From positions 186,001-250,000 of the forward strand of contig PGZZ01000007.1 in NCBI GenBank assembly GCA_002841545.1: 64,000 nucleotides of DNA, in the 5' to 3' direction. Made by a program: the position numbers and the translations under genes. Origin of the DNA: Firmicutes bacterium HGW-Firmicutes-16. Lineage in GTDB: Bacteria > Bacillota > Clostridia > Oscillospirales > Oscillospiraceae. Shown here one piece after another: positions 448 through 48,138 of the stretch. Position 1 is the first letter of the stretch. Every line of letters begins with the position of its first letter. A model generated the notes under the pieces. The model saw only the letters and a list, made by a program, of their open reading frames with translations. It was not told the origin of the DNA and ran no database searches.

Positions 448-460
448 TAAAAAAGCTATT

Positions 461-550
461 TGCTCTCCCTACGTTGGCATTACCCAAATCAGGTGTAAGG
501 GTCGAAGTTCGATTACTTCCTCTCAGCCTGCAAAACAAGCTCCCCTGTTC
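461..550 (-). promoter_or_regulatory. TPP (THI-box) riboswitch
   Basis: The minus strand shows the conserved THI-box elements: CTGAGA near 520-525, ACCTGAT near 487-493, and GGTAATGCCAACGTAGGGA near 469-485. The flanks can pair as P1. It controls the cytX permease downstream, where TPP binding should favour the adjacent terminator. Confidence 0.93.
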
Positions 551-565
551 GTATTATTTGTCGTT

Positions 566-2179: not shown

Positions 2180-2257
2180 TATATCCATCTCCATAAAAAA
2201 ATCAAAGAGCCTGCCGCAAAACAAACGTTGCAACAAGCTCTTCAAAATTACGACATT

Positions 2258-2425
2258 TTATTTTTCGGCTATAGCGCCTGTGGGGCAGGTATCAACGCAA
2301 GCGCCGCACTGAAGGCACTTGTCCTGATCGATCTCGTAGTGCTCATCGCCCATTGAGATAGCATCTGCAGGACAGCTGTCCGCGCAAGCACCGCAAGCGA
2401 TGCAATCGCTGCTAATTACAAACAT
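2258..2425 (-). CDS. Small 2[4Fe-4S] ferredoxin
   Basis: A 55-residue clostridial-type ferredoxin beginning MFVISSDCIACGACADSC. It has two CxxCxxCxxxC motifs (CIACGACADSC and CLQCGACVDTC), each followed by P, for two [4Fe-4S] clusters. It is a cytosolic low-potential electron carrier, a plausible partner for PFOR and indolepyruvate oxidoreductase elsewhere in the window. An AAGGAGG site lies just upstream of the ATG. It is the first gene of the unit that continues into trmN6 and rsmI; the 78-nt gap to the chosen trmN6 start holds no gene. Confidence 0.93.
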   Translation of the reverse strand: MFVISSDCIACGACADSCPADAISMGDEHYEIDQDKCLQCGACVDTCPTGAIAEK

Positions 2426-2466
2426 TTATGTATCCTCCTTGGTTGAAATAAGTCTCTTACTTTTGA

Positions 2467-2494
2467 ATTATAACATATACTTTTCGTATTGCAA
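2467..2494 (-). promoter_or_regulatory. Promoter of the ferredoxin-trmN6-rsmI operon
   Basis: The minus strand has TTGCAA (2489-2494), a 16-bp spacer and TATAAT (2467-2472) with an extended TG upstream of the -10. Confidence 0.7.
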
Positions 2495-2601
2495 GAAATT
2501 TTCTTGAAATGCTTTTAAATTCTCGTGAGCACCCGTTAAAGCAAGAAAAACAATGAATGCACGAGCTATCGCGAGATAATTAACGATAACTCAGCCTAAT
2601 T

Positions 2602-2618
2602 GGTCAGGATAGGTCAAA
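2602..2618 (+). promoter_or_regulatory. CtsR operator, upstream box
   Basis: GGTCAGG-ATA-GGTCAAA, a heptad direct repeat with a 3-bp spacer, matches the CtsR box. It lies just upstream of the -35 element of the ctsR operon. Confidence 0.75.
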
Positions 2619-2625
2619 CCAATAT

Positions 2626-2657
2626 TTGCATTACTGACCTTTCCTGATTATTATAAT
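2626..2657 (+). promoter_or_regulatory. Promoter of the ctsR-mcsA-clpC operon
   Basis: TTGCAT (2626-2631) is followed after 17 bp by TATTAT (2649-2654), which overlaps a better TATAAT at 2652-2657 with 20-bp spacing. The promoter is bracketed by two CtsR boxes, consistent with autorepression. Confidence 0.6.
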
Positions 2658-2663
2658 TACAAA

Positions 2664-2680
2664 GGTCAAAGATGGTCAAT
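2664..2680 (+). promoter_or_regulatory. CtsR operator, downstream box
   Basis: GGTCAAA-GAT-GGTCAAT, a near-consensus CtsR heptad repeat, lies downstream of the -10 and before the ctsR ribosome binding site. Confidence 0.85.
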
Positions 2681-2710
2681 TTCAAATTAAACATTCTACG
2701 AGGTGACAGC

Positions 2711-3172
2711 ATGGGAACAAGCGATATGATAGCGAGCTTTATAATCAATGCTCTGGAAAATGCGGGCGGGATGGCGGAGCTTCAGCGTTCCAATCTGGCT
2801 GAAAAATTCAGCTGCGTCCCGAGTCAGATTAATTATGTGATTTCAACGCGATTTTCTCCCGAGCATGGCTACATTGTCGAATCCCGAAGGGGCGGCGGCG
2901 GTTTCATACGGATAACGAGAGTTCAGGCAAGTCCCGAAAGACTCATTATGCATACAGTCAACGCCGTCGGCGATAGTCTTGACCTTCGAACCGCTGCGGC
3001 CTTCGTTTCGAATATGCTCGGCTCTGACGCGATGGACGGAAAAACGGCGGGACTCGTTATGACGGCGATAAGCGATAATTCGCTCCGACCCATAGCCCCT
3101 GAGCACCGCGACATTGTAAGAGCTTCAATTTTCAAGCAACTGCTGGTCAGCATTTTGGCAGTATTGGAATAA
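2711..3172 (+). CDS. ctsR: CtsR, class III heat-shock repressor
   Basis: A 153-residue transcriptional repressor of clp genes. The N-terminal winged-helix part carries the conserved RRGGGGFIRI wing near residue 60; the C-terminal part is the dimerisation domain. The start at 2711 (MGTSDMIASFI) is preceded by GAGGTGACAGC; an earlier in-frame ATG at 2672 overlaps the downstream operator and has no ribosome binding site. It is the first gene of ctsR-mcsA-clpC and should repress its own promoter through the two upstream boxes. In Bacillus, inactivation on heat or arginine phosphorylation involves McsA/McsB; mcsB is absent here. Confidence 0.95.
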   Translation: MGTSDMIASFIINALENAGGMAELQRSNLAEKFSCVPSQINYVISTRFSPEHGYIVESRRGGGGFIRITRVQASPERLIMHTVNAVGDSLDLRTAAAFVSNMLGSDAMDGKTAGLVMTAISDNSLRPIAPEHRDIVRASIFKQLLVSILAVLE

Positions 3173-3202
3173 TAATCATATATTTTCAAGGAGGTAACTT
3201 TT

Positions 3203-3682
3203 ATGAAATGCGAAAAATGTAACAACGAGGCTGTATTCCACTTTCAGTCGAATATAAACGGTGAAAAAACCGAGTATCATCTCTGCTCGGACTGCGCGAA
3301 GTCTGCGGGTTTTGGCGAGATGCTGGATTTCCGTCCCCGTTCCATGTTCGAAAGCGTCTTCAGCGAACCCTTCGGTCTCATGGACAGCTTCTTCAAAGAC
3401 CCGTTCGCTTCCTTTGGGACACTTGCCGACGGTTTCTTTGCAAGAAGGCTGCTCACTCCTACCCTTGAGGCGCCCAGCGTGAACGTCGCCGTCGGCGAGC
3501 CCGAAAAAGCGACAGAAACCGAAGCGAAAGCAAAGGATAATATCCCTAGGGACGCAGGTGAAGAATTCCGCCGCAAGCGCGAGCTCTTTGCTCTGCGGCA
3601 TCAGATGAGAACCGCTGTCAGATCGGAAGAATTTGAAAAAGCGGCCGGTCTTCGGGATAAGATTCGCGAACTCGAGCGATAA
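3203..3682 (+). CDS. mcsA: McsA, UvrB/UvrC-motif zinc protein of the CtsR operon
   Basis: A 159-residue protein with N-terminal zinc-binding CxxC pairs (CEKC, CSDC) and a C-terminal UVR motif (RSEEFEKAAGLRDKIREL). In Bacillus McsA activates the protein-arginine kinase McsB and modulates CtsR. A strong AAGGAGG site precedes the start. The gene sits 30 nt after ctsR and 53 nt before clpC, leaving no room for mcsB. Without the kinase in cis, McsA may act directly on CtsR/ClpC, or mcsB may lie elsewhere. Confidence 0.92.
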   Translation: MKCEKCNNEAVFHFQSNINGEKTEYHLCSDCAKSAGFGEMLDFRPRSMFESVFSEPFGLMDSFFKDPFASFGTLADGFFARRLLTPTLEAPSVNVAVGEPEKATETEAKAKDNIPRDAGEEFRRKRELFALRHQMRTAVRSEEFEKAAGLRDKIRELER

Positions 3683-3735
3683 TTAAGTAAATAACTAGGA
3701 ATTGTTTGGAAAATCCATTTCGAGGAGGAATGTGA

Positions 3736-6201
3736 ATGCGCAACCAGGATAGATTTACAGAAAGAGCGCAGCTAGCTCTTTCAAAAGCACAGGAAGCCGC
3801 GCAGAATATGGGCCACAGCTATGTAGGAACGGAGCACATCCTCCTCGGGGTGGCTCTCGAGGGCGAAGGTCTTGGCGCAAAATTACTGCGCGAAAACGGA
3901 CTTGAGGAGACGCTTATTTCTGAGCTTCTGGAAAAATTCGTAGGGCGAGGCGCGCCGGGGACACCCGCTCAAGGACTCACCCCCGACGCTAAGCGCGTTA
4001 TTGAGCTTTCAATTATTGACGCCAACCGTTTGGGTCACAGCTACATCGGAACGGAGCATCTGCTTATGGGCATGCTCCGCGAGCCCGAATGCGCAGGCGC
4101 AAGGCTGATTTCTTCCACCGGCGTTGACCTCAACAAAATATACACAGACATTGTAAATGTCTTCCGCAGCTCCGACTACCGCCAGATGCCTCCGCAGGCA
4201 GCGGCGCAGACTTCCGTACGCAGCGGCAAGAAGACCGAGACCAAAGTTCTCGACCAGTTCAGCCGCGACTTGACGGTCTCCGCGCAGGAAGGACAGCTCG
4301 ACCCCGTTATCGGTCGTTCGCGCGAAATTCAGCGCGTTATCCAAATCCTTTCGCGCCGAACGAAAAACAACCCTGTCCTCATCGGAGAGCCGGGTGTCGG
4401 CAAAACTGCCATAGCCGAGGGGCTTGCACAGATGGTCATAGCGGGTGATGTACCGGAGGATCTTCGCGGAAAGCGCATAGTCTCCCTCGACCTCACTGGG
4501 ATGCTTGCGGGTACAAAGTACCGCGGTGATTTTGAGGAACGCATCAAATCAGCTCTGAAAGAGGCACAAAAAGCTGGAGACATCATCCTTTTCATAGATG
4601 AACTCCATACAATAATCGGCGCGGGCGCCGCGGAAGGCGCGATTGACGCGGCGAATATCATTAAGCCTGCTCTCGGCAGAGGCGAGATTCAAGTAATCGG
4701 CGCAACAACGCTCAACGAATACCGAAAGCACATTGAGAAGGACGCAGCGCTTGAGCGCAGGTTCCAGCCTGTCATGGTCGAGGAGCCCTCCGCCGAGGAG
4801 TCAGTTGCGATAATCACCGGTCTGCGCGACAGATATGAAGCGCACCACAAGCTGAAGATAACCGACGAGGCTATACGCGCCGCCGTAACGATGTCGGGGC
4901 GCTATATCAATGACCGCTATCTGCCTGACAAAGCAATTGACCTCATGGACGAGGCATCCTCCCGCGTGCGTATGAAAACGCTGACTGCTCCCGATGAGCT
5001 TAAGGTAATTGAAAAACGCATTGACGCTCTAATAAACGAAAAAGAAGCCTCAATCAAGGCACAGGACTTCGAAGCAGCCGCCAGAATACGCGACAAGGAA
5101 AAACATCAGCGCGAGGAGCTCGACGCCGCCCGCAAAAAGTGGGATGAAAAACGCGGTGGCATGATAAGATGCGTCACCGAAGAGGATATCGCCGAGGTCG
5201 TTTCCGGCTGGACCGGTATACCCGTCACAAGTCTTACTGAGAGCGAGAGCGACAGGCTTCTAAAGATGGAGGAGATACTTCACAAACGAGTTATCGGGCA
5301 AAACGAGGCCGTTTCGGCGGTTTCCCGCGCAATCCGCCGCGGGCGCGTCGGTCTTAAGGACCCGAAACGTCCGGTTGGCAGCTTTCTGTTCCTTGGCCCC
5401 ACGGGCGTCGGCAAGACCGAGCTTTGCAAGGCTCTCGCGGAAGCGGTTTTCGGTGACGAGAGCGCCATGATAAGAATAGATATGTCCGAATACATGGAAA
5501 AGCACACTATCTCGAAGCTCATCGGTTCGCCACCGGGCTATGTAGGCTATGACGAAGGTGGCCAGTTGACCGAAAAAGTCAGAAGAAAGCCCTATTCCGT
5601 CATCCTTTTCGACGAGATCGAAAAAGCTCACGAGGATGTTTTCAACATCATGCTTCAAGTAATGGATGACGGTATCCTCACTGACTCGCAGGGCAGAAAA
5701 GTAAACTTCAAAAACACCATCATCGTCATGACCTCGAACATCGGCGCGCGCAACATTACCGATAAGCAGAAAACTCTCGGCTTTGCTGATGCAGATGTCA
5801 CGAAGAGCGGCATCAAAAACGTCGAAGAGATTCGCACGCTCGTAATGAAGGATTTGAAAAGCACCTTCCGTCCGGAGTTTCTAAACCGCATAGACGATAC
5901 GATAGTTTTCTCGCAGCTCTCCCGCGAAGACATCAGAATAATTGCGGGGAACATGATTGCAATCGTTGCGAAAAGGCTTAAGGACCTCGGCATAGGTCTC
6001 GCTGTTTCGAACGAAGCCCTTGACAAACTCGCATCTGATGGCTTCGATCCAATTTACGGTGCGCGTCCCCTGCGCCGCACAATCCAAGCCACCATCGAGG
6101 ACGCGGCGGCGGAAAAGCTGCTCGACGGCTCTCTGAAGAGCGGCGAAAAAGCAGAGGCGACCGTTGATGAAGGAAAAATCGTTTTGAAAAAGGCAATTTA
6201 A
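3736..6201 (+). CDS. clpC: ATP-dependent protease ATP-binding subunit ClpC
   Basis: A complete 821-residue Hsp100 AAA+ unfoldase. Two N-domain repeats contain [11 protein letters not shown] and [14 protein letters not shown]-1 has Walker [10 protein letters not shown] and Walker B ILFIDELH. The middle domain contains a UVR motif ([18 protein letters not shown]). AAA-2 has GPTGVGKTE and [10 protein letters not shown]. It unfolds substrates for ClpP in the cytosol. AGGAGGAATGTGA precedes the ATG. It is the third gene of the CtsR-controlled operon and is followed by a hairpin terminator. Confidence 0.97.
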
Positions 6202-6240
6202 CAAAATTCTCTTTCAATATTTAGTAAATAGTGTTAAGAT

Positions 6241-6272
6241 ACTCCTGCCCGCTTAAGGCAGGAGTATTATTA
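6241..6272 (+). terminator. Terminator after clpC
   Basis: ACTCCTGCC / GGCAGGAGT stem with a 7-nt loop, followed by ATTATTAT. The U-tract is imperfect. Confidence 0.65.
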
Positions 6273-6322
6273 TCGCGCCAATCCGACTTTTAGGACAAGG
6301 CTCAGCGGAGGTAGAAAGATAA

Positions 6323-6769
6323 ATGTCTGAAGATTACAGCTATGAAGATAACTTGGCAGGTCAAAAAATGACCAAAGAAGAGCGCTACTCAAAAATGATT
6401 GACTATATGAACAGCGTTCCCGATTTCAACTTACACAACGGCATCAAGCTAACCGAGCTGCGTGACAATTTTGCGTCTTGCAGAGTCGAACTCACTCCGG
6501 AATCCATAAACGCGCAGGGCATGGCGCATGGCGGTTTAATATTCTCAATTTGCGATGTAGCCGCGGGCTTTGCGGCAGCGTCGATTGACCGCCGCTGTGT
6601 CACGCAGGCTTCGAATATTAATTTCCTGCGTCCTGCGCTGGGAGCTTATCTCACAGCAAAGGCGGAGCCTATAAAGGTCGGTAAGACCATATCCGTGGTC
6701 GAGGCAAGGGTCTATGACGATTCGGGGCGCCTCGTTGCGGTGTCCACATTCTCGATCTTTTACACCTGA
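6323..6769 (+). CDS. PaaI-type hotdog-fold acyl-CoA thioesterase
   Basis: A 148-residue single-domain hotdog protein. The signature HGGLIFSICDVAAGFA near residue 70 is that of the PaaI/4HBT branch, which hydrolyses acyl- or aryl-CoA esters. About 25 extra charged residues precede the fold. GGAGGT lies upstream of the ATG. It stands alone between the clpC terminator and a strong terminator shared with the convergent FmdE-like gene. The substrate cannot be read from the sequence. Confidence 0.85.
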   Translation: MSEDYSYEDNLAGQKMTKEERYSKMIDYMNSVPDFNLHNGIKLTELRDNFASCRVELTPESINAQGMAHGGLIFSICDVAAGFAAASIDRRCVTQASNINFLRPALGAYLTAKAEPIKVGKTISVVEARVYDDSGRLVAVSTFSIFYT

Positions 6770-6775
6770 GTTTTT

Positions 6776-6823
6776 TAATAATAAGAGGCAAAGCGAAAAT
6801 TCGCTTTGCCTCTTATTATTACA
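6776..6823. terminator. Bidirectional terminator between the thioesterase and FmdE-like genes
   Basis: A long stem AATAATAAGAGGCAAAGCGA with its complement and A/T-rich flanks on both sides lies between convergent genes. Confidence 0.9.
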
Positions 6824-6835
6824 TAATCGAATCGG

Positions 6836-7357
6836 TCACCTATCATATTCCTTAAAACAGCCGAGACAAACCTTTTTTCCGCTGACGAGCCTGATTTTAT
6901 CTTCTCTAGCCTTTTCACCACAGTTTTCGCAAACGACGGATTGGAATATCCTTGCCGGCTCCGGAAGCTTAAACACAGGCTTTGTAAGCGAGAACAGCTC
7001 CTCCGTCGGAGCGTCCAGTATAAAGGCAAGCCTTTCCTCTCTGGACATCTCCCTGCCGTCAGCCTTAAAAAAGAGCCTGACAGATTCGTTGCTCTCGCGG
7101 AAATAAAAGTTGAACGCCATCTTTCCCATGGGCTTATAAATCAGATTGCCCTTACCGAAAGTAGTGCCCAAAAGGCTTTGCACGGCGTCAACAGCGCAGG
7201 TGTCGTTTTCGGTGATGCAGACAAGCTCCTCGTCAACTGACGCATTTGTCGATAAATGCTCCGAAAGCGCCTCACAGACCTTGAAGCCAATCGCAAGTCC
7301 CGGACATTCGTGACCGTGGAATTCCACCGCTTTTCTCCATTTTAGCTGATTGTACAC
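6836..7357 (-). CDS. FmdE-family protein with C-terminal zinc ribbon
   Basis: A protein of about 173 residues. It opens with the FmdE/Tra-type signature FHGHECPGLAIG, containing a His/Cys metal site, and closes with a CENC...CLGC zinc ribbon. FmdE domains occur as formylmethanofuran dehydrogenase subunit E in methanogens and as stand-alone proteins near molybdenum or cofactor genes in clostridia; no such partner is visible here. The GTG at 7357 (MYNQLKWRKAVEF) is chosen because AAGGAG lies 9 nt upstream; an in-frame ATG at 7390 lies upstream of that site. Function is unknown. Confidence 0.8.
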   Translation of the reverse strand: MYNQLKWRKAVEFHGHECPGLAIGFKVCEALSEHLSTNASVDEELVCITENDTCAVDAVQSLLGTTFGKGNLIYKPMGKMAFNFYFRESNESVRLFFKADGREMSREERLAFILDAPTEELFSLTKPVFKLPEPARIFQSVVCENCGEKAREDKIRLVSGKKVCLGCFKEYDR

Positions 7358-7475
7358 GGGTTCACACTCCTTAGTGTTTTTCATTTGCATGAATCTTTTT
7401 CTTTATTAAAACGGATTATATAACGAACCAACGAAAATCTCAAGTCACCTATGTTAAATCCTCTCGGCACTAGGT

Positions 7476-8486
7476 TTAGCACATTTCCGTCTCAGGATAA
7501 TAGTGCGAGAGTATCTCTCTGTAATCAAAGCCGTTACGCGCCATAACATTTGCACCATACTGGCTCATTCCCAGCCCGTGACCGTAGCCCGTTACAGTGA
7601 ACGTAAAAATTCCGTCCTTATACTCAAGCGTAAACGCGGTACTTCGCAGCTCAAAGAGCTTTCGCATCTCGGGACCTGTCAGCGCGGCGCCTCCGATTGT
7701 CATGCTCTTTACCCTGCCGCTCTCGTCCAGCTCCGTATCCGTGACCCATTTTGTAGGATCGTCGGAAAAGGAGGCGTCGGACTTAAGAAGAAGCACAGTT
7801 TCGCGGAAGTTCTCCTTTGCGACCTCGACCGTAGTCACAAAATTCGGAACGTCGGTCTCCGTTTCGGGGCTGTTTACACAGACGAGATAAGGGACGTCTC
7901 CCCATAGCTCGCTGCCGCTTTCTGTCTTTCCGGCGGAGGAGGAGTGGAACGACGCGAGGATCGGCTCGCCCGAATATGTCAGCACCTGCCCGTCCGTATC
8001 CGTAACAGCAGACCTAATCGCCCCCATGTATTCGTCAAACTTATCTCCCCAATTTCCTCTCAGCTCCGTCTCTTCGGTAGCGGCCATGCAGCAGCCTGCT
8101 TCCGTGCAAATGTTTGCCTGCGGGTGCTTTGGGTTGACGTGCTTCGTGCAGTAAACTATGTAGGTTCTCGCCGCAACAGCCTGAGCTTTCAGAGCCTCTT
8201 CGGAGAAGGTTGCGGGCACCTCGGCTGCCAGAACATAGGGCAGATAGTCCGCCATTGTCACATCCTTCACCGCTTCTCCGTCTAATACGGTAAAGGTGAA
8301 TTCTTTGTCGGACACTTTTTCATATACACTTACTGGGCCTGTCGGCGAGGGGGACGCGGCCTCCGTAGGAGCCACTGAAGGCTCGTCCGAGAGATATTCC
8401 CCGCTGACGCTTTCCTTCATAAATAGAACGGGCATAATAATGGCGGCCATTGCCAACAGGATCGAAACCCAGATTATTCGTTTCAT
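7476..8486 (-). CDS. spoIID: Stage II sporulation protein D (SpoIID), lytic transglycosylase
   Basis: A 336-residue membrane-anchored protein. One N-terminal transmembrane segment and a Pro/Ser/Thr linker precede the SpoIID domain, with motifs DYLPYVLAAEVPATFSEEAL and a C-terminal GYGHGLGMSQYGANVMA. In Bacillus SpoIID cleaves denuded glycan strands with SpoIIM and SpoIIP during engulfment. The ATG at 8486 has GGTGAG directly upstream; a longer in-frame extension to 8711 has no such support. The gene is monocistronic here; sporulation-sigma control is expected from the family but no promoter was assigned. Confidence 0.93.
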   Translation of the reverse strand: MKRIIWVSILLAMAAIIMPVLFMKESVSGEYLSDEPSVAPTEAASPSPTGPVSVYEKVSDKEFTFTVLDGEAVKDVTMADYLPYVLAAEVPATFSEEALKAQAVAARTYIVYCTKHVNPKHPQANICTEAGCCMAATEETELRGNWGDKFDEYMGAIRSAVTDTDGQVLTYSGEPILASFHSSSAGKTESGSELWGDVPYLVCVNSPETETDVPNFVTTVEVAKENFRETVLLLKSDASFSDDPTKWVTDTELDESGRVKSMTIGGAALTGPEMRKLFELRSTAFTLEYKDGIFTFTVTGYGHGLGMSQYGANVMARNGFDYREILSHYYPETEMC

Positions 8487-8625
8487 CTTCTCACCCCGAT
8501 TAGTAGTTGACGCTGATGTAAAAAAAGTATAGAATGGGTCAATCAAATATTGGAAAAGGGTATGGGGTTTGCCGCCCCTTGCCTTGTCGGTTCCATAGTA
8601 ATTATATTTTGACTGGAAGGTTAAT

Positions 8626-9399
8626 ATGCGAAAGAAATCATTAAAACTCTGCGGCTTCACGGTGATAATGGGGATCTTCGGTGCCTTCCTCCGATGGCTG
8701 CAAAACATCAATATTTTTGAAGCAGATACGGAGCTTGCTATATCCCATTCCCCTTGGAGCTATGCTGTCGTAATTTTCGCCCTACTGTTCGCTGTCCTTC
8801 TCTTCGTATGGCTCCGCAGGTATAGAGCTGTCGGTTTCGCTTCGAGTTATCCCGCGATCTACTCCGAAACCGTACCCTTCGTTACCGTGGCGGCCTATAT
8901 TATCGGCGTCATCATAGCAATCGGAGGCGTTCTCACTATCTCCCGTGCTGTGAGCACCTCAAAAACCGCCTTCGATCTCATCCTAGGACTATTCAGCCTC
9001 ATCTGCGCCGCCGGTATGACGACTTTCATTTTATCTGTAGGCAAGCCGGAAAAGAAAAACAGCGGAGCTTTCGGCTCTGCCGTAGCTGTCTTCTTTCTCT
9101 GCTTCTGGCTCATAGCTTCATATAAATACAGCGCGTCCGATCCCGTCATCTGGCACTTCGCGCCAAGGCTTCTAACGATTTCTGCAACAATTCTCGCTTT
9201 CTATTTCATCGCGGGTTTTGTTTTTAATAAGCCTAAGCCCCTTACTTCACTTTATTTCAGTCTCCTCGGAACCTTCATGTGCCTCGCAGTTCTCGCCGAT
9301 TCCTATCCCCTTGGTGAGCAGTTTATCACGGTCGGCTTTCTTGCTGCGATGACACTTTTATCCTTCAGCCAGGTAAGCGGCGCAAAAAAAGCGACATGA
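8626..9399 (+). CDS. Hypothetical polytopic membrane protein
   Basis: 257 residues, hydrophobic throughout with roughly seven or eight membrane-spanning stretches (for example near residues 44-63, 79-102, 117-136 and 148-166) and short basic loops (LRRYRAVGF, KPEKKNSG). I do not recognise a characterised family. It is transcribed divergently from spoIID and ends at a strong terminator. AGGTTAAT just before the ATG is a weak ribosome binding site. A sporulation link is only positional. Confidence 0.7.
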   Translation: MRKKSLKLCGFTVIMGIFGAFLRWLQNINIFEADTELAISHSPWSYAVVIFALLFAVLLFVWLRRYRAVGFASSYPAIYSETVPFVTVAAYIIGVIIAIGGVLTISRAVSTSKTAFDLILGLFSLICAAGMTTFILSVGKPEKKNSGAFGSAVAVFFLCFWLIASYKYSASDPVIWHFAPRLLTISATILAFYFIAGFVFNKPKPLTSLYFSLLGTFMCLAVLADSYPLGEQFITVGFLAAMTLLSFSQVSGAKKAT

Positions 9400-9420
9400 T
9401 TTTTTAAAAGTAATATATTA

Positions 9421-9458
9421 AAATACCCTGTGCCGTGAAAACGGCACAGGGTATTTTT
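9421..9458. terminator. Bidirectional terminator
   Basis: Perfect 14-bp stem ATACCCTGTGCCGT / ACGGCACAGGGTAT with GAAA tetraloop and T/A tracts on both sides, between convergent genes. Confidence 0.93.
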
Positions 9459-9501
9459 CGATTTACGAGCACTGATATTCAGTGCGTTTCGCCAATCTAT
9501 C

Positions 9502-9747
9502 TCATTTCGCTTCTTCCATTGCTTTGATACAGTCCTTGCAAATGTTCTTACCTTTGAACACCACAATATCTTTGGCGTTGTCGCAGAAAATGCAGGCGGG
9601 CTGATATTTACGCAGAATAATAGAGTCGTCGTCTACATATATCTCCAAAGAGTCCTTTTCTGCGATATCCAAGGTTCGGCGGAGTTCGATTGGCAATACG
9701 ATTCGCCCGAGTTCATCTACTTTTCTAACTATACCGGTCGATTTCAT
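9502..9747 (-). CDS. AbrB/SpoVT-family transition-state regulator with zinc ribbon
   Basis: An 81-residue protein. The N-terminal AbrB-type swapped-hairpin DNA-binding domain reads MKSTGIVRKVDELGRIVLPI. A C-terminal CIFC...CKDC ribbon follows, typical of clostridial AbrB homologues. Such proteins regulate transition-state and sporulation genes. The start at 9747 follows GGGGAGGCATTTTT; an upstream in-frame ATG at 9789 lacks a site. A near-consensus promoter lies about 70 bp upstream. Calling it the functional AbrB orthologue is inference. Confidence 0.88.
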   Translation of the reverse strand: MKSTGIVRKVDELGRIVLPIELRRTLDIAEKDSLEIYVDDDSIILRKYQPACIFCDNAKDIVVFKGKNICKDCIKAMEEAK

Positions 9748-9813
9748 AAAAATGCCTCCCCGTTTCGGTAGTTTACTTACTGCTTCCATGTTTGATATAT
9801 CTTTCTATATAAA

Positions 9814-9841
9814 ATTATATTGAACTTATCATGAATGTCAA
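9814..9841 (-). promoter_or_regulatory. Promoter of the AbrB-type regulator
   Basis: Minus strand TTGACA (9836-9841), 16-bp spacer, TATAAT (9814-9819). Confidence 0.75.
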
Positions 9842-9925
9842 ACATATTTTTGAAAATTTATTAGTTATTCACAATTTTTGTTATTTCTCACAAGAATTCT
9901 GGAATAAAAATGGAGATGAAGATTA

Positions 9926-10507
9926 ATGCTTTTTAATCTGGTAATTGTTCTCATGGTAGTGTTCTCTCTCGTATTCGGCGCTTTGAGCGGTAACCTCACC
10001 GTGCTCTCTGCCGCTGCGGTTTCCGGCGCAAAGGATGCTGTCACACTCAGCCTTTCTCTATGCGGAATGATTTGCCTTTGGTCGGGCGTAATGGAGCTTA
10101 TGAAACGTTCCGGACTATCCGAAAAGCTTTCTCGTCTTATGCGTCCGGTGCTTTCCAGACTCTTTCCGTCTGCAGCTAAGGATGCTGATACAATGGACGC
10201 TCTCTCCTCGAACGTCTCCGCCAACCTTTTAGGGCTGGGCAACGCCGCCACTCCCGCGGGTATAAAGGCGGCTGTGGGCCTTAAGCGTCTTTCCGGGCTT
10301 TCCTCCGCTTCAGACGAGCTATGTCTGCTCGTTGTCATGAACACCGCGTCCATACAGCTCCTCCCGACGACGGTAGCTTCTCTGCGCGCCTCGTTCGGAG
10401 CCTCCTCACCCTTCGATATTCTCCCAGCTGTCTGGCTGTCCTCGCTCATTTCCGTAACGGCGGGTATCCTCGCCGCAAAGCTGTTCCAGCGGTTCACACA
10501 TCCATGA
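9926..10507 (+). CDS. spmA: Spore maturation protein A
   Basis: A 193-residue integral membrane protein of the nucleoside-recognition (Gate) family. GLGNAATPAGIKAA near residue 105 and MNTASIQLLPTT near residue 142 identify SpmA. With SpmB it is needed for full spore-core dehydration in Bacillus and Clostridium. Its stop overlaps the spmB start (ATGA). The gene lacks a strong consensus Shine-Dalgarno; GGAGATGAAGATTA precedes the ATG. Confidence 0.93.
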   Translation: MLFNLVIVLMVVFSLVFGALSGNLTVLSAAAVSGAKDAVTLSLSLCGMICLWSGVMELMKRSGLSEKLSRLMRPVLSRLFPSAAKDADTMDALSSNVSANLLGLGNAATPAGIKAAVGLKRLSGLSSASDELCLLVVMNTASIQLLPTTVASLRASFGASSPFDILPAVWLSSLISVTAGILAAKLFQRFTHP

Positions 10508-11025
10508 AGCTGATAGGTGAGCTCGCCATCCCTGTCATCATCGCGTTTGTGATGGTCTATGCCATGAGGCGCGGAACGGATGTTTTCTCGGGTATGACAG
10601 CGGGCGCAACAGACGGTCTCAAGACTGTTCTGGGCATCGTCCCCGCTCTTATAACGCTGCTGCCCTGCATTTATATGCTGCGGGCAAGCGGTGCTATTGA
10701 CGCGCTCTGCGCCCTCCTTTCACCACTGCTTTCAAGGCTCGGCATACCGGCTGAAACAGTTCCGCTTATGCTACTTCGCCCGCTCAGCGGAAGCGGAGCT
10801 CTCGCAATCGGCAGCGATATAATCAAATCTAACGGCGCCGACTCTCTCATAGGGCGCTGTGCCGCCGTCATGCTCGGTTCAACCGAAACAACCTTCTATG
10901 TTATCGCGGTATATTTCGGCGCGGCGGGTATTAAAAATAGCCGCCATGCAATTCCAGCAGCACTTATCGCCGACCTCACCGGTTTGCTTGCGGCGGCTTT
11001 CTTCACGAGGCTCTTCTGGGGATAA
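10504..11025 (+). CDS. spmB: Spore maturation protein B
   Basis: A 173-residue membrane protein starting MKLIGELAIPVIIAFVM. It carries the Gate-family motif RPLSGSGALAI and GSTETTFYVIAVYFGAAGI, both characteristic of SpmB. It overlaps spmA by 4 nt and is followed by a terminator hairpin, so the pair forms a complete bicistronic unit. It acts with SpmA in spore-core dehydration. Confidence 0.94.
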   Translation: MKLIGELAIPVIIAFVMVYAMRRGTDVFSGMTAGATDGLKTVLGIVPALITLLPCIYMLRASGAIDALCALLSPLLSRLGIPAETVPLMLLRPLSGSGALAIGSDIIKSNGADSLIGRCAAVMLGSTETTFYVIAVYFGAAGIKNSRHAIPAALIADLTGLLAAAFFTRLFWG

Positions 11026-11057
11026 AAAACGTCTCCGCTCATTAAGCGGAGGCGTTC
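11024..11057. terminator. Bidirectional terminator between spmB and argS
   Basis: Stem AACGTCTCCGCT / AGCGGAGGCGTT (one mismatch) with an A-run on the 5' side and CTT on the 3' side, between convergent genes. Confidence 0.75.
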
Positions 11058-11065
11058 TTAACATT

Positions 11066-12763
11066 TTACATCTTTTCCGGAGCTGTTACGCCAACGATAT
11101 TGAGCGCGTTTGCAATTACCTTCTCGGTGCAGTCGCACAGAATGAGCCTTGCATCGCGTAGCTCAGGCTCGGCTTCCTTAATACGACAGCTCGTATAAAA
11201 CCTGTGGAACCTTGCAGCAAGCTCTGTGACATAACGGTTTATACGCGAGGGATCGTAGTCTCGTGCCGCAATCTTAATTTCCTCCGTAAACATGGCAAGC
11301 TGTTTAATCAGCTCGCGTTCATGCTCGGTGCTTAGTAGAGCCGCGCTGACTGCTTCACACTTCGGAAGGGAATGTCCTTCCTCCGCCATTGCGGCAATCA
11401 GACTGCAAATTCTCGCATGGGCATACTGAACATAGTACACTGGGTTCTCGCTGTCCTGCCTGATTGCAAGGTCGAGGTCGAACTCGAGATGCGTATCCGG
11501 TTTTGCGTTAAAGAAAAATCTGCATGCGTCGACACCGATTTCGTCCAAAAGATCGTTGAGCGTAAGTGCCTTGCCGGTACGCTTGGACACCTTAACAATC
11601 TCATTGCCGCGCACAAGACGGACCATCTGCATAATCAAAAAATCAAGCTTCTTGTTCTGAAGACCAAGCACAGGAGCCGTCATCGAGGCTGCGAAGCGTA
11701 TCGCGTGACCGTGATGATCCGCGCCCCAGACGTCTATAACTCTGTCGAAGCCGCGTTCGATGAATTTGTTGCGATGATAGGCTACATCAACTGCATAATA
11801 TGTGTAGAAGCCGTTCCCGCGGCGCAGCACCTCGTCCTTGTCAGCTCCGAATTCGGTATTGCGGAGCCAGAGTGCGTCGTCCTTTTCATAGGTATAGCCC
11901 CCGTCCTCGAGGAGCTTCACCGTTTCGGCGACATAACCGCTATCGTGGAGCGAGCTTTCAAGGAACCACTCGTCGAAATGTATACGGTAGCGTTCCAAAT
12001 GCTGCTTCATCAGCGCAATGTTGTAGGGGAGTCCGAATTCAACAAAGACCTTGCAGCGCTCGTCGCTGTCCATATCGACGTATTTTCCGCCATCACGGTC
12101 AAATAACAGCTGCGCGAGAAGTCTTATGTCCTCACCGTGATAGCCGTTTTCGGGGAATTCGACCGCGTCCTCGCCCTTTATGAGCTGAAGATATCGCACC
12201 TCGATAGATTTTCCAAACAAATCGACCTGATTGCCCGCGTCGTTAACATAGAACTCACGGAAGACCTTATAGCCTGCCCTATCAAGTACGGAGGCGAGTG
12301 CGTCGCCCAAAACTCCGCCGCGTGCATTGCCGATAGTCATCGGTCCTGTCGGATTCGCCGAAACGAATTCGACCATAACCCTCTCGCCGTGTCCCTCGTC
12401 CGAGCGTCCATAGGAAGCGCCTTCGCTTTGTACGGTTTCAAGAACCTTTGTGTACCACTTGTCGGATAGTCGGAAGTTTAGAAACCCGGGTCCCGCAATC
12501 TCTACGCTTCCAAAATAGCTATCGGTAAGATCAATATGGGAAACCAAAATCTCCGCTATAGCGCGCGGAGGCAGTTTCAAGGCTTTTGCCCCAGCCATCG
12601 CGTGGTTCGCCGCGTAGTCACCGTTGGATGTGTCCTTCGGTATTTCAACCTTGCCGGAGAGAAGGCCTCCATCCGGAACAGCTCCTTCGCCGACTGCTTT
12701 TTTATAGGCTTTCTCTATAATCCCGTCAATGGAGAGCCTAGCTTCTTCAATCAGATTGGCCAT
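11066..12763 (-). CDS. argS: Arginyl-tRNA synthetase
   Basis: A 565-residue class I synthetase. An N-terminal Add1 domain precedes the HIGH-type sequence SANPTGPMTIGNARGG (HIGN variant) near residue 120. The KMSKS position reads VKVSKRTGK, and the C-terminal DALR anticodon-binding domain is intact. It charges tRNA-Arg in the cytosol. The start at 12763 (MANLIEEARL) is preceded by AGAGGAGAG. It begins inside the 3' end of the upstream ywiB-like gene (17-nt overlap), the conserved Firmicute arrangement. Confidence 0.96.
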   Translation of the reverse strand: MANLIEEARLSIDGIIEKAYKKAVGEGAVPDGGLLSGKVEIPKDTSNGDYAANHAMAGAKALKLPPRAIAEILVSHIDLTDSYFGSVEIAGPGFLNFRLSDKWYTKVLETVQSEGASYGRSDEGHGERVMVEFVSANPTGPMTIGNARGGVLGDALASVLDRAGYKVFREFYVNDAGNQVDLFGKSIEVRYLQLIKGEDAVEFPENGYHGEDIRLLAQLLFDRDGGKYVDMDSDERCKVFVEFGLPYNIALMKQHLERYRIHFDEWFLESSLHDSGYVAETVKLLEDGGYTYEKDDALWLRNTEFGADKDEVLRRGNGFYTYYAVDVAYHRNKFIERGFDRVIDVWGADHHGHAIRFAASMTAPVLGLQNKKLDFLIMQMVRLVRGNEIVKVSKRTGKALTLNDLLDEIGVDACRFFFNAKPDTHLEFDLDLAIRQDSENPVYYVQYAHARICSLIAAMAEEGHSLPKCEAVSAALLSTEHERELIKQLAMFTEEIKIAARDYDPSRINRYVTELAARFHRFYTSCRIKEAEPELRDARLILCDCTEKVIANALNIVGVTAPEKM

Positions 12764-13199
12764 TTTGTTCTCTCCTCTGCTCACTTACTTTGATTTTAAA
12801 CATGTTGTGTCCGACTACGGAATGTTGAAAATCCACGACATAGTCGATTTCCATATTCCCTCCGTGCTCGTCGAACGACATAGAAATATTCGTCGTGTCG
12901 ACGCCCATGGTCGCCGCGCCGAACGGCGTTTCATAAAGAAAGTTGTGCTTTCTTCCCTTTTCGAAAACCATGCGGCTGTTGAGACTGCCCTCTCTGGTCA
13001 TTACAACGCCCATAGGACTAATCGCAAACGAGGTTTTCGTCCCGTCAAGCCCTGTCAGCTCGCTCTCATTGTAGGACAGCAACCCCTCTCCGTTTTCATA
13101 GGCAAAAATTCCGTCCGTCTCAAGCTCTATTATATTGTCCTCTCCCTGTGGGTCGTTTTGCGTCCCACGGATGGAGATTATAACATCTTTCATTTTCAT
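12747..13199 (-). CDS. ywiB: DUF1934 (YwiB-like) beta-barrel protein
   Basis: A 150-residue protein of the calycin-like DUF1934 family, whose genes commonly precede argS in Firmicutes, as here. The sequence is rich in alternating beta-strand patterns (MGVVMTREGSL, NFLYETPFGAATMGV, GGNMEIDYVVDFQHSV). The start at 13199 (MKMKDVIISI) has GAGGTAGAGAG upstream and was preferred over an in-frame ATG at 13250. The biochemical role of the family is unknown; the pairing with argS suggests co-expression rather than a known partnership. Confidence 0.85.
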   Translation of the reverse strand: MKMKDVIISIRGTQNDPQGEDNIIELETDGIFAYENGEGLLSYNESELTGLDGTKTSFAISPMGVVMTREGSLNSRMVFEKGRKHNFLYETPFGAATMGVDTTNISMSFDEHGGNMEIDYVVDFQHSVVGHNMFKIKVSEQRREQNGQSD

Positions 13200-13329
13200 A
13201 TTACTCTCTACCTCTCGGATAAACGGTAATAAATCGAATACCCGTATCATTCCTATTCATAAACTAGCCGTTCGATACGCAGAGCAACTACACTTAATGT
13301 ACGCAATGTCCGTAGACGCGGACATTATA

Positions 13330-14154
13330 TTATAGATTACCATCCTTGTCAAAGGGTTCTATTCCTTTGAGATACGGTGAAATGTCGCGCCTTAGCATAA
13401 GTAGCGCCGTTGCGGCAAAATTCTCGAATGAGCCTGTAGTATAGTATTCCGCTTTTGACGATCTATTTTCGCTGGTAAGATTGTTTTCGCGAAGATAGCG
13501 GCAGAGCTCTCTCGCGGCGGCGGCACCGGCACTTATGAACCTTATGCCTTCACCCATATACTCGCTTATGACTTCCTCAAGCAGCGGATAGTGCGTACAT
13601 CCTAGAATCACGGTGTCAACTCCCGCCTGCTTAAGCGGAGGAAGGTATTCCGCAACCGCGCGTATGACTCTTTCGTCTTCTTTATCAAAAACGCCATCCT
13701 CGACCATCGTCGCAAATTTAGGGCAGGCTTTTGCGGTTACTTCGATTTCCATCGATTTCTCTCGTATTAATCTCTTATATGTTCCAGCCTTGACACTCGC
13801 AGTGGTTGCGAGCAGCCCGATTTTTTTGTTCTCCGTCAGCCCGACTGCCTCACAGACCGCGGATTCAACGACTCCGAAAACTGGCACAGGACTTTCCTCT
13901 TTTAGAACTTCCAGCGCATTCGAGGTCGCAGTACCGCAGGCCACGAAGACCGCCTTGACTTCATGTTCCAATAAAAAGCGCAGATCTCTGCGCGACATTT
14001 CAATTATCTGCTCACGAGTCTTTTCTCCATAGGGAAAATTGTATGAATCACTTAAGTAAATTATGCGTTCATCGGGTAAAAGCCCCGAAAGCTCCTCAGC
14101 CGCGGTCAGTCCGCCCAGACCTGAATCAAAAACGCCTATGGCCCTGTTATCCAT
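13330..14154 (-). CDS. murI: Glutamate racemase
   Basis: A 274-residue cofactor-independent racemase supplying D-glutamate for peptidoglycan. Visible are the N-terminal FDSGLGGLT and the two catalytic cysteines in VACGTATSNA (about residue 73) and GCTHYPLL (about residue 185). GGGGAGGCATAG precedes the ATG. The gene is transcribed alone from its own promoter, running away from the gene at 14471. Confidence 0.96.
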   Translation of the reverse strand: MDNRAIGVFDSGLGGLTAAEELSGLLPDERIIYLSDSYNFPYGEKTREQIIEMSRRDLRFLLEHEVKAVFVACGTATSNALEVLKEESPVPVFGVVESAVCEAVGLTENKKIGLLATTASVKAGTYKRLIREKSMEIEVTAKACPKFATMVEDGVFDKEDERVIRAVAEYLPPLKQAGVDTVILGCTHYPLLEEVISEYMGEGIRFISAGAAAARELCRYLRENNLTSENRSSKAEYYTTGSFENFAATALLMLRRDISPYLKGIEPFDKDGNL

Positions 14155-31929: not shown

Positions 31930-32154
31930 CACATCCCGTCCAAGCGATATACGCGTGAAGCAGAAACGTTCTCAACCGCCCGATTACAGCCGATTTTCTC
32001 GGCACGGACATACTCCACGAAAGTTACCGGATCATAATCCGCAATCTCCCGCTTCATCGCAATGTGCGCAATTAGGGCGCAACTTCCCCAATAGGCGCTC
32101 CGTTAGAATATCAGATAATTCTTCCTCTGTCAATATATAATTGCATTTTTCCAT
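31929..32154 (-). pseudogene. Frameshifted small gene upstream of rpsJ
   Basis: Frame 1 reads MEKCNYILTEEELSDILTER from 32154 and soon stops. A second frame, offset by one base, continues AYWGSCALIAHIAMKREIAD, then FVEYVRAEKIGCNRAVENV, to a stop at 31929. Joining them at about 32095-32100 gives one plausible protein of about 75 residues, so a single-base indel is the simplest reading. There is no clear ribosome site. The family is not recognised. Alternatives are a sequencing error, programmed shift or chance. Confidence 0.4.
32105..32133 (-). promoter_or_regulatory. Putative S10-operon promoter
   Basis: Minus strand TTGACA (32128-32133), 17-bp spacer, TATTCT (32105-32110), pointing at rpsJ about 330 bp away. 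It overlaps the reading frame of the frameshifted small gene, so one of the two calls may be coincidental. Confidence 0.5.
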
Positions 32155-44738: not shown

Positions 44739-44812
44739 GCGGGCGTGGTTCAATGGTAGAACACCAGCCTTCCAAGCTGGATACGTGGGTTCGATTCCCA
44801 TCGCCCGCTCCA
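44739..44812 (+). tRNA. tRNA-Gly (TCC)
   Basis: Acceptor stem GCGGGCG / CGCCCGC, anticodon loop CTTCCAA (anticodon TCC), T-loop GGTTCGATTCC, and encoded CCA at 44810-44812. Confidence 0.96.
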
Positions 44813-45152
44813 TCGTCGAAGCAAACTGCGTATCGTTCGCTTCCGTGCAAGCACGAAAGCTCATTCACTCCGTTGCTTCTCCTCTTCGCGTCAAAAGCCA
44901 AGCTTTCGCCGCGAGGATACGAGAGACGACTGACGCGGTTTCTTCCTCTCCCTACAAAGTCCTTCGGACTTCGCGGGGATCGTAGGACGAAAGGTTCCAA
45001 GTTTTGGAGCAACCTAAAAAATAATCGTTCCATTCGTTTTCCAAACGGAAGCCCAGCGAAGTGGGTCTCGTTTGGGGAGGAGCGGCTGCCAACCGTGCTT
45101 AGAAGCCTCGCTTGCGAGGATTCGTGCAAAGGCAGGCAGTGAGCGACGATAT
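44813..45152 (+). other. 340-bp non-coding spacer inside the tRNA cluster
   Basis: No credible gene. Several short hairpins occur, including AAGTCC-TTC-GGACTT (44959-44973), AGGTT...AACCT around 44994-45017 and CCTCGC-TT-GCGAGG (45106-45119). The other tRNA spacers are only 19-50 nt. Confidence 0.6.
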
Positions 45153-45229
45153 GCGCCAGTAGCTCAGGTGGATAGAGCAACTGCCTTCTAAGCAGTAGGT
45201 CAGGGGTTCGAGTCCCTTCTGGCGTACCA
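45153..45229 (+). tRNA. tRNA-Arg (TCT)
   Basis: Acceptor GCGCCAG / CTGGCGT (first pair G-U), anticodon loop CTTCTAA (anticodon TCT), CCA encoded. Confidence 0.95.
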
Positions 45230-45276
45230 GTTCTTTCTCGGCTGGATGCCGGTTTTTTGTTCAGGTATTAGTATTT

Positions 45277-45354
45277 GGTGGGTATAGCTCAGTTGGTTAG
45301 AGCACCGGATTGTGGTTCCGGGGGTCGAGGGTTCAAATCCCTTTACCCACCCCA
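45277..45354 (+). tRNA. tRNA-His (GTG)
   Basis: Acceptor GTGGGTA / TACCCAC with the extra 5' G at 45277 opposite C73, anticodon loop TTGTGGT (anticodon GTG), CCA encoded. Confidence 0.96.
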
Positions 45355-45390
45355 TAATAATTCTTGGGCTGTTTTCGCTTGAATCTGCGA

Positions 45391-45464
45391 TGGGATATAG
45401 TGTAATGGTAACACACTAGACTTTGACTCTGGTATTGTAGGTTCGAGCCCTGCTATCCCAGCCA
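45391..45464 (+). tRNA. tRNA-Gln (TTG)
   Basis: Acceptor TGGGATA / TATCCCA, anticodon loop CTTTGAC (anticodon TTG), G73, CCA encoded. Confidence 0.95.
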
Positions 45465-45482
45465 TTTTTTATCATCAAATTT

Positions 45483-45558
45483 GATTCAGTAGCTCAGTCG
45501 GCAGAGCATTTGCCTTTTAAGCAAAGGGTCCGGGGTTCGAATCCCCGCTGAGTCACCA
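45483..45558 (+). tRNA. tRNA-Lys (TTT)
   Basis: Acceptor GATTCAG / CTGAGTC with one T-G wobble, anticodon loop CTTTTAA (anticodon TTT), A73, CCA encoded. Confidence 0.96.
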
Positions 45559-46802: not shown

Positions 46803-46965
46803 GGCGGTTACCTCCTTATGTATAATAGATATTAGAATTTAGCCCGAATATTTCTGAATTTTCAATAATTCAAAAGCGTAGGATTATCTTGCCTTTTCTC
46901 TCGCTTTCTCTTCCGCTCCCCCTTGCCAAACGCAGATATCTATATTACAATGCTAAGTACAATTA

Positions 46966-47145
46966 AACATTCGGTGCAAGGGTGCGGCGCTATAAAAGAG
47001 CCGCCTAAGAGGGAAGCGGGGTGAAAATCCCCCACGAGCCCGTCGCTGTGCAGGAGGAGTCCGTTTGCTTAAAACCACTGGGCGTATGCTTGGGAAGGTG
47101 CAGACTGGCGATGATACCAAGTCAGAAGACCTGCCCACGCTACCG
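46966..47145 (+). promoter_or_regulatory. Cobalamin (B12) riboswitch
   Basis: Hallmarks in order are AGAGGGAAGCGGGGTGAAAA (about 47007), CCCGTCGCTGT, the B12-box region ACCACTGG near 47080, GGGAAGGTGCAGACTGGCGATGA and GTCAGAAGACCTGCC near 47120-47135. It lies about 100 nt upstream of the DUF4430 gene. The following sequence lacks an obvious terminator, so control may act on translation at the AAGGGAGG site. Together with upstream AT-rich sequence it fills the 440-bp gap. Confidence 0.93.
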
Positions 47146-47243
47146 TACAAAAAAGCCGCGAGTCCCGGCACTTGTACATCACACGAACGGGATAACTGCG
47201 CCTTCTTTGTACGGATTTCAGCCGAGCAAGGGAGGATTTTTTT

Positions 47244-47642
47244 ATGAATAAAAGCAAAAAAACAGGTATTGCACTAGTATTAATTCTCGTCGTTCTCGTC
47301 GCAGGGGCTTATTTTGCCTATAGGCTCCTCATGCCTGATACCGTCGTGGGAGCCAAAACCATCACAGTCTCAATTGACCACCTAAACGGCGACGACAAGA
47401 CGCTGACGATTAAAACAGACGCCGACTATTTGCGCGGCGCGCTCGATCAGGAGAAACTCATCGAGGGTGAGAACAGCCAGTACGGCTTCTTCATCACCGC
47501 CATGGACGGCGAAAAGGCCGACGATAGCAACCAGCAGTGGTGGGGTTACACTAGGTCCGGCGAATATGTCGATACTGGCGTCGACCAGACTGCGATTGCC
47601 GACGGCGAAAGCTATGAATTCACACTCCATGAGGGAACCTAA
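47244..47642 (+). CDS. Membrane-anchored DUF4430 (transcobalamin-like domain) protein
   Basis: 132 residues. A single N-terminal membrane segment (residues 8-28, no lipobox) anchors an extracellular DUF4430 domain (LIEGENSQYGFFITAMDGEK, SNQQWWGYTRSGEYVDTGVD), related to the C-terminal domain of eukaryotic transcobalamin/intrinsic factor. GGGAGG lies upstream of the ATG. It is downstream of a cobalamin riboswitch and overlaps an ECF S-component gene by 14 nt. Binding of cobalamin outside the cell and handing it to the S component is the inferred role. Confidence 0.88.
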   Translation: MNKSKKTGIALVLILVVLVAGAYFAYRLLMPDTVVGAKTITVSIDHLNGDDKTLTIKTDADYLRGALDQEKLIEGENSQYGFFITAMDGEKADDSNQQWWGYTRSGEYVDTGVDQTAIADGESYEFTLHEGT

Positions 47643-48138
47643 GCCCCCCCTTTCCGTAAGGGAGCTCATTGAGCTCTCACTCATGGCCGCGCTTATGGTC
47701 GGCACTCAAGTCGCAATGGCGGCACTGCCGAACATCAACATTGTGTCGGTTCTCATCATTCTCACGGTAATAGTCTACGGAGCAAAGGCCTTTTACTCCG
47801 TGGCTGTGTTTGTGTTGCTCGAGGGAATGATTTACGGCTTTGGACCATGGTTCATAAACTATCTATACGTCTGGGCGATATTGGTCGGTGTTGCGTTGTT
47901 ATGCAGAAAAAACGAAAACGCCCTCATATGGGCGGTTATTGCCGGTCTGTTCGGACTGATCTTCGGACTTTTCTGCGCGATTCCGTATCTTTTCATAGGC
48001 GGACCCGCAATGGCGCTAAGCTACTGGGTCAGCGGAATTCCCTTTGATATTACTCACTGTATTTCCAACTTCGTTCTGACTTTGCTGCTTATTAACCCTT
48101 TGAAAAAGCTGCTTCTAAAGCTGCGGACGGCAGGATAG
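47629..48138 (+). CDS. ECF transporter S component, predicted cobalamin specific
   Basis: 169 residues, about six membrane helices (SLMAALMVGTQVAMAALPNI, YGAKAFYSVAVFVLLEGMIYG, WAVIAGLFGLIFGLFCAIPY), with the size and pattern of ECF S components. Its ATG (47629) overlaps the DUF4430 gene; a GAGGGAACC stretch lies inside the start. It would need the shared EcfA/A'/T energising module encoded elsewhere. Specificity for cobalamin or a precursor is inferred from the riboswitch and its partner. Confidence 0.85.
   Translation: MREPKPPLSVRELIELSLMAALMVGTQVAMAALPNINIVSVLIILTVIVYGAKAFYSVAVFVLLEGMIYGFGPWFINYLYVWAILVGVALLCRKNENALIWAVIAGLFGLIFGLFCAIPYLFIGGPAMALSYWVSGIPFDITHCISNFVLTLLLINPLKKLLLKLRTAG

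Follow-up and report, generated by a model that had tools for sequence, protein, structure and literature searches.

The window, the whole stretch of 64,000 nucleotides that was analysed, is positions 186001-250000 of contig C21 in a 2.79-Mb draft genome (96.7% complete). At 46963-48138 it contains a cobalamin riboswitch, followed by the gene of a membrane-anchored DUF4430 protein and an overlapping gene of an ECF S component (Table 1). The arrangement read in the initial annotation, a B12 riboswitch with two overlapping genes behind it, is thereby confirmed. The start of the S component gene was placed by means of its homologues and the overlapping ATG; the mechanically defined ORF begins at 47467. 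The next gene, starting at 48217, encodes a DUF2007 protein with a zinc-ribbon-like N-terminal part and was kept out of the operon unit because no such gene lies behind the pair in the three relatives whose downstream ORFs were read (L034, L058, and L061). Elsewhere, the window carries a TPP riboswitch (449-556, minus strand), an S10-Clostridia leader (31984-32065, minus strand), and five clustered tRNA genes (44739-45558, plus strand).

Table 1. Features of the cobalamin riboswitch locus (window coordinates)
Feature	Position	Strand	Basis or remark
Sigma-70-like promoter candidate, directly upstream of the aptamer	46923-46951	+	10/12 consensus bases, 17-nt spacer
Cobalamin riboswitch aptamer	46963-47152	+	RF00174, 109.9 bits, E 1.2e-26
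Possible expression platform: long hairpin between aptamer and ATG	47143-47214	+	Read from predicted folds
Shine-Dalgarno-like AAGGGAGG of the DUF4430 gene	47228-47235	+	Read directly; partly paired in predicted folds
DUF4430 gene (CbrS-like), 132 aa	47244-47642	+	N-terminal membrane anchor and transcobalamin beta-like domain
N-terminal membrane helix, residues 3-29	47250-47330 (codons)	+	Helix in AF2 model; K/R-rich N-terminal flank
Predicted extracytoplasmic DUF4430 domain, residues 37-131	47352-47636 (codons)	+	Range aligned to 3u7z and B12 carriers
S component gene (CbrT-like), 169 aa	47629-48138	+	14-nt overlap with the DUF4430 gene

The aptamer match spans the whole RF00174 model (positions 1-189), its score standing against a gathering score of 31.5 bits, and it is the single RF00174 match in the genome at E 0.001 or better. 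Adenosylcobalamin is the ligand for which this riboswitch family is mainly known. The promoter candidate is weak, since two such sites occur in the region (both strands) against 1.8 expected. The leader stretch 47130-47260 has a predicted fold of -37.8 kcal/mol (z -2.99), stronger than that of shuffled sequence. No terminator-like site was found on the plus strand between the aptamer and the ATG, and the predicted leader folds are compatible with both translational and transcriptional control.

The DUF4430 protein and the S component

The 132-aa protein matches PF14478 (DUF4430) with 33.3 bits (cut-off 23.8), and no other Pfam domain matches it up to E 1. Its AF2 model (pLDDT 93) consists of the N-terminal helix and a beta-grasp domain with a hairpin behind its helix (helix 63-69, strands 73-78 and 81-87). 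Because the basic flank is N-terminal to the anchor, the DUF4430 domain should, by the positive-inside rule, be located outside the membrane. In a Foldseek search of the PDB with the model, 3u7z is the first match, and every row from rank 3 to rank 19 is a haptocorrin, an intrinsic factor, or a transcobalamin. The B12 carriers align by VIA-align with Z 13.8-14.9 over 94-99 residues; the next unrelated row has 7.3. The transcobalamin-like domain proposed in the initial annotation thus folds like the beta domain of the B12 carriers. The closest structure, 3u7z, is RUMGNA_00854 of Ruminococcus gnavus, a DUF4430-type protein deposited in the PDB as a putative metal-binding protein; it is found by sequence at E 2e-25 and shares 47% identity (Z 19.2). 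With a DUF4430 profile, the PDB sequences also yield haptocorrin 4kki (human transcobalamin-1) at E 4e-5, whereas bovine transcobalamin is found at E 0.11.

The fold is common to the window protein and to the beta domains of transcobalamin, haptocorrin, and intrinsic factor (5no0, 5np4, 2bb6, 4kki, and 2pmv). Unlike these carriers, from which it differs in sequence (10-19% identity), the window protein has no alpha domain and is membrane-anchored. A full two-domain carrier of the transcobalamin type is ruled out, as DUF4430 is the sole Pfam match and the rest of the 132 residues is the membrane helix. For human transcobalamin, it is reported that the isolated beta domain still binds cobalamin, with lower affinity, and that cobalamin brings separate alpha and beta domains together (Bloch 2017, PMC5599065).

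The S component has no match among Pfam and NCBIfam models up to E 1. The sole PDB chain found with its sequence is 6fnp chain A, from ECF-CbrT of Lactobacillus delbrueckii (E 7e-13). With a profile built from 29 relatives, this chain comes up again (E 4e-25), and nothing else in the PDB matches up to E 10. The AF2 model is helical (pLDDT 95.5). Foldseek with this model returns nothing under E 0.1 from the PDB, and 6fnp is absent from the top 50 rows; the first four rows, CbiM, 4huq_S, 4hzu_S, and PanT, are all components of ECF transporters (prob 0.85-0.99, E above 0.1). An AxxxA-type motif in helix 1 of S components makes the contact with EcfT. By script, the strict motif is present in 20/29 family members; the window protein lacks it and has small residues at the same spacing.

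The window protein is homologous to the S component of L. delbrueckii ECF-CbrT (31% identity over 133 aa, measured on the L064 copy described below), and both are stand-alone S components with a shared ECF module in the genome and a B12 context. ECF-CbrT is reported to rescue an E. coli transport mutant in B12-dependent growth and to import cobalamin and cobinamide, while CbrT alone binds cobalamin (about 9 nM), is unstable when purified without substrate, and works with the shared ECF module of its host (Santos 2018, PMC5997447). The assignment of an ECF S component for cobalamin holds in that the protein groups with CbrT, a proven cobalamin binder and importer in L. delbrueckii.

Occurrence of the pair in other genomes

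The selection of loci used only similarity to the S component. Within the order, 204 of 295 genomes have a match, and the 70 loci retained (the window included) are ranks 1-71 of the S component listing, down to E 1e-22; rank 61 (G263), which has an internal stop, was excluded before counting. A DUF4430 ORF lies upstream on the same strand in 70/70 of these CbrT-type loci, so the pairing is near invariant. The distance from its end to the first aligned S component residue is <=90 nt in 69 and 453 nt in the remaining one (L101). The DUF4430 profile was made from 26 of the 70 loci, the other 44 being independent of it; 25/26 of its members match PF14478 at E 0.01. At the N-termini of the 70 DUF4430 ORFs, there is a membrane helix in 42 and a lipobox-like sequence in 27; the remaining ORF is truncated at the end of its contig.

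A cobalamin riboswitch is present upstream at gathering score in 36/70 loci, 35 of them with default filters and one more (L033) with permissive filters. The rescan at permissive thresholds covered the 35 loci that had no gathering-level riboswitch under default filters; 12 of these have sub-gathering matches to the cobalamin clan in the correct position and strand, and 22 of the 70 loci show no cobalamin riboswitch within the stretches examined, even with matches up to E 1 admitted. No other riboswitch class reaches gathering score in the 70 loci, the other rows at that level being one tRNA and one Gut-1 RNA. Below that level, the permissive scan also lists T-box leaders in the vicinity of L105 and L120, along with rows of other families that look like chance matches. 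The adjacency that the initial annotation had noticed is therefore a regular feature of the loci examined in related genomes, and the riboswitch that accompanies it at gathering score is that for cobalamin.

Among S component matches weaker than the 70 best-ranked loci, many lie in larger DUF4430 clusters. DUF4430 itself exceeds its cut-off in 203/295 genomes of the order, and several of these relatives have larger DUF4430 clusters within a few kilobases of cobalamin riboswitches, as judged by eye (for example, G231:C1:376891-382839 and G055:C1:180742-186849). Across the phylum, 90/398 genomes match the S component. The best 30 loci were taken, two of which repeat earlier ones. In the next 12, DUF4430 is directly upstream in 11, L137 having none; in the last 16, which have weaker matches and longer S component frames, there is no DUF4430 within 1.5 kb on either side.

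With the CbrT chain as query, seven loci of the Lactobacillaceae type were retrieved. In L064, the genes for class II ribonucleotide reductase, DUF4430, CbrT, and cobalamin adenosyltransferase follow one another, with Pfam support for all except CbrT, which is the query match. The same order, nrdJ-DUF4430-cbrT-pduO, is found in L066, L067, and L070, where DUF4430 was recognised with Pfam and NrdJ and PduO were identified by eye. The L064 record (2231-6084) is titled Faecalicatena absiana, and the CbrT encoded there shares 98% identity with the L. delbrueckii chain; the record is likely a contamination or mislabelled. In L067, an extra truncated DUF4430-like ORF was seen by eye between the DUF4430 gene and cbrT (4594-4848). 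In L069, a distance of about 1.7 kb separates DUF4430 and CbrT from a diol dehydratase gene on the opposite strand. The DUF4430 gene is apparently decayed and cbrT intact in 2/7 loci, L065 (L. delbrueckii DSM 20074) and L068, with traces directly upstream of cbrT (about 4287-4980 and about 1350-2480, respectively); the remnant in L065 was recognised from its frames set beside L064.

The gene order published for L. delbrueckii is nrdJ-cbrS-cbrT-pduO (Santos 2018, PMC5997447). As the order nrdJ-DUF4430-cbrT-pduO matches it, the published cbrS is, by gene position, most likely the DUF4430 gene. No RF00174 match at gathering score was found in the seven loci. The window differs from them in being a riboswitch-led operon of two genes, with neither nrdJ nor pduO, and in the membrane helix of its DUF4430 protein, where the Lactobacillaceae-type proteins have lipobox-like or secretion-type N-termini (by eye).

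ECF modules and cobalamin metabolism in the genome

The initial annotation had found no BtuFCD or EcfA/T genes near the pair and had proposed that it shares a common ECF module. The first statement stands, as 0/5 of the EcfT-family (PF02361) and 0/4 of the FecCD (PF01032) matches of the genome fall in the window. A module that the pair could share is present: a stand-alone EcfA-EcfA'-EcfT module, consisting of two ABC_tran proteins and a CbiQ-family protein (171 bits), is located on contig C15 (L082), where an ORF read by eye as truA follows it. This module had also been sought behind the ribosomal operon of the window and is not there. BtuCDF is a functional analogue, a cobalamin importer with an outside binding protein whose parts are unrelated to those of the window; as the importer of this operon it is ruled out by the absence of FecCD matches from the window. 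Two full-length FecCD importers of unsettled substrate occur elsewhere in the genome. One (L088) adjoins ORFs read by eye as ModE/MobA-like, and the other (L089) has an aldehyde oxidoreductase-like ORF (by eye) and a Peripla_BP_2 protein.

The genome encodes the B12-dependent methionine synthase MetH (L086), and CbiD, CobS, and the adenosyltransferase families PF01923 and PF02572 have no match in it. From these presences and absences in the gene content, the organism looks like a B12 auxotroph; with a B12-dependent methionine synthase and no recognisable corrin synthesis, the cell would need to import B12. Given the main ligand of this riboswitch family, adenosylcobalamin, the absence of the two adenosyltransferase families is surprising.

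A second, dedicated ECF locus (L063) lies on contig C11 (22001-41900); positions 4124-13497 of this stretch, on the minus strand, include genes for EcfT and an EcfA-EcfA'-S fusion. It has two clear DUF4430 proteins, one of them with S-layer domains, and a third below the cut-off. An S-layer protein of the locus has a weak match of the squalene-cyclase type (E 3e-4, below its cut-off), so that a bacterial transcobalamin may be split here over several proteins. The locus has no riboswitch that reaches gathering score.

Function of the pair and its significance

We consider it very likely that the window encodes a cobalamin-controlled importer of the ECF-CbrT type, with a transcobalamin-like protein as its probable capture subunit, that would work with the shared ECF module. 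At low intracellular cobalamin, the riboswitch would permit expression of both genes. The CbrS-like protein, held in the membrane by its one N-terminal helix, would pick up cobalamin with its transcobalamin beta-like domain on the outside and pass it on to CbrT, the neighbouring S component. CbrT would bind cobalamin in the membrane and dock on the shared EcfA-EcfA'-EcfT module, with import driven by ATP.

Some observations speak against this reading. The available text on the ECF-CbrT assays, in E. coli and in vitro, mentions no CbrS (Santos 2018, PMC5997447). Since the L. delbrueckii transporter works in these accounts and its S component binds cobalamin unaided, the DUF4430 protein seems, by analogy, dispensable for transport itself. 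Also unfavourable are the apparently decayed DUF4430 genes of L065 and L068, the lack of one in L137, the 22 loci in which no cobalamin riboswitch was found, the Foldseek result for the S component model, the two FecCD importers elsewhere in the genome, and the missing adenosyltransferase families. A more specific form of the capture reading, for and against which we see the balance as even, is that the DUF4430 domain acts as transcobalamin beta and the cavity of CbrT as the alpha domain, with cobalamin enclosed between them and handed to the membrane subunit. The S component of ECF-CbrT is described as fully membrane-embedded in a 2025 paper (PMC12075633); the substrate-binding subunit of ECF transporters is thus not a soluble protein. 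If the enclosure were true, this would be an ECF transporter with a dedicated outside capture subunit for a very bulky vitamin.

The same assays leave room for a role other than capture, in which the operon imports cobalamin and the DUF4430 protein stabilises or orients CbrT or aids ECF docking, having a carrier fold without strong ligand binding. Such a role, which we regard as unlikely, would suit the instability of purified CbrT without substrate (PMC5997447) and the near-invariant, often overlapping gene pairing, as of a structural partner. The fold, however, is that of a cobalamin-binding domain, and the anchor should place it outside. The larger DUF4430 proteins of the same genome, one with S-layer domains, adjoin a weakly alpha-domain-like protein, which again suits capture.

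It is quite unlikely that the EcfT and EcfA-EcfA' belonging to the contig C11 locus, and not the stand-alone module, power CbrT, the two loci forming one system. That locus does combine EcfT, an EcfA-EcfA'-S fusion, and DUF4430 proteins (two clear and one sub-threshold) in the same genome, but there the S component forms one protein with the ATPases, the genome also has a canonical stand-alone module, and the CbrT of L. delbrueckii is reported to use the shared module (Santos 2018, PMC5997447). Very unlikely is a pair serving another corrinoid or related ligand (cobinamide, an incomplete corrinoid, or another tetrapyrrole) with cobalamin as the regulatory signal only: CbrT also takes cobinamide (Santos 2018, PMC5997447), and for the domain clade other ligands were considered possible by the authors of a 2007 paper and by its reviewer (PMC1796856), but the host has MetH, precursors should be useless to it because CobS and CbiD have no match, and in Lactobacillus the adjoining genes encode B12 proteins (class II ribonucleotide reductase and adenosyltransferase, with diol dehydratase in L069).

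For the cobalamin importer with a capture subunit, there are two precedents in print. A transcobalamin-like SLBB clade was described in low-GC Gram-positive bacteria, generally with CbiO- and CbiQ-like genes, in hosts that usually lack key B12 synthesis enzymes, and B12 scavenging was predicted (Burroughs 2007, PMC1796856). The window protein belongs to the same domain family, the members of which are secreted or anchored; those described there are multi-domain proteins in CbiO/CbiQ operons, whereas the window has a small pair with a stand-alone S component and a riboswitch. CbrT was predicted in 2009 (as cited) and characterised in 2018 (Santos 2018, PMC5997447). The initial annotation had called the importer poorly characterised, which needs correction with respect to CbrT and to the scavenging prediction. 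CbrS is given no role in the literature found. The literature covered on DUF4430, cbrS, and transcobalamin-like bacterial proteins, mostly outside subscription papers, contains no test of CbrS, and the word cbrS is absent from the text of the 2025 ECF-CbrT paper (PMC12075633). The transporter type and the prediction of B12 scavenging were thus already known, and CbrS as an outside capture subunit would be the new part.

The pairing gives CbrS, so far a name in print, a probable identity and a likely job. It also turns the use of an outside capture subunit by an ECF transporter into a testable question. Finally, it fits the 2007 proposal that the animal B12-carrier domain was taken from Gram-positive bacteria scavenging B12 with it (PMC1796856).
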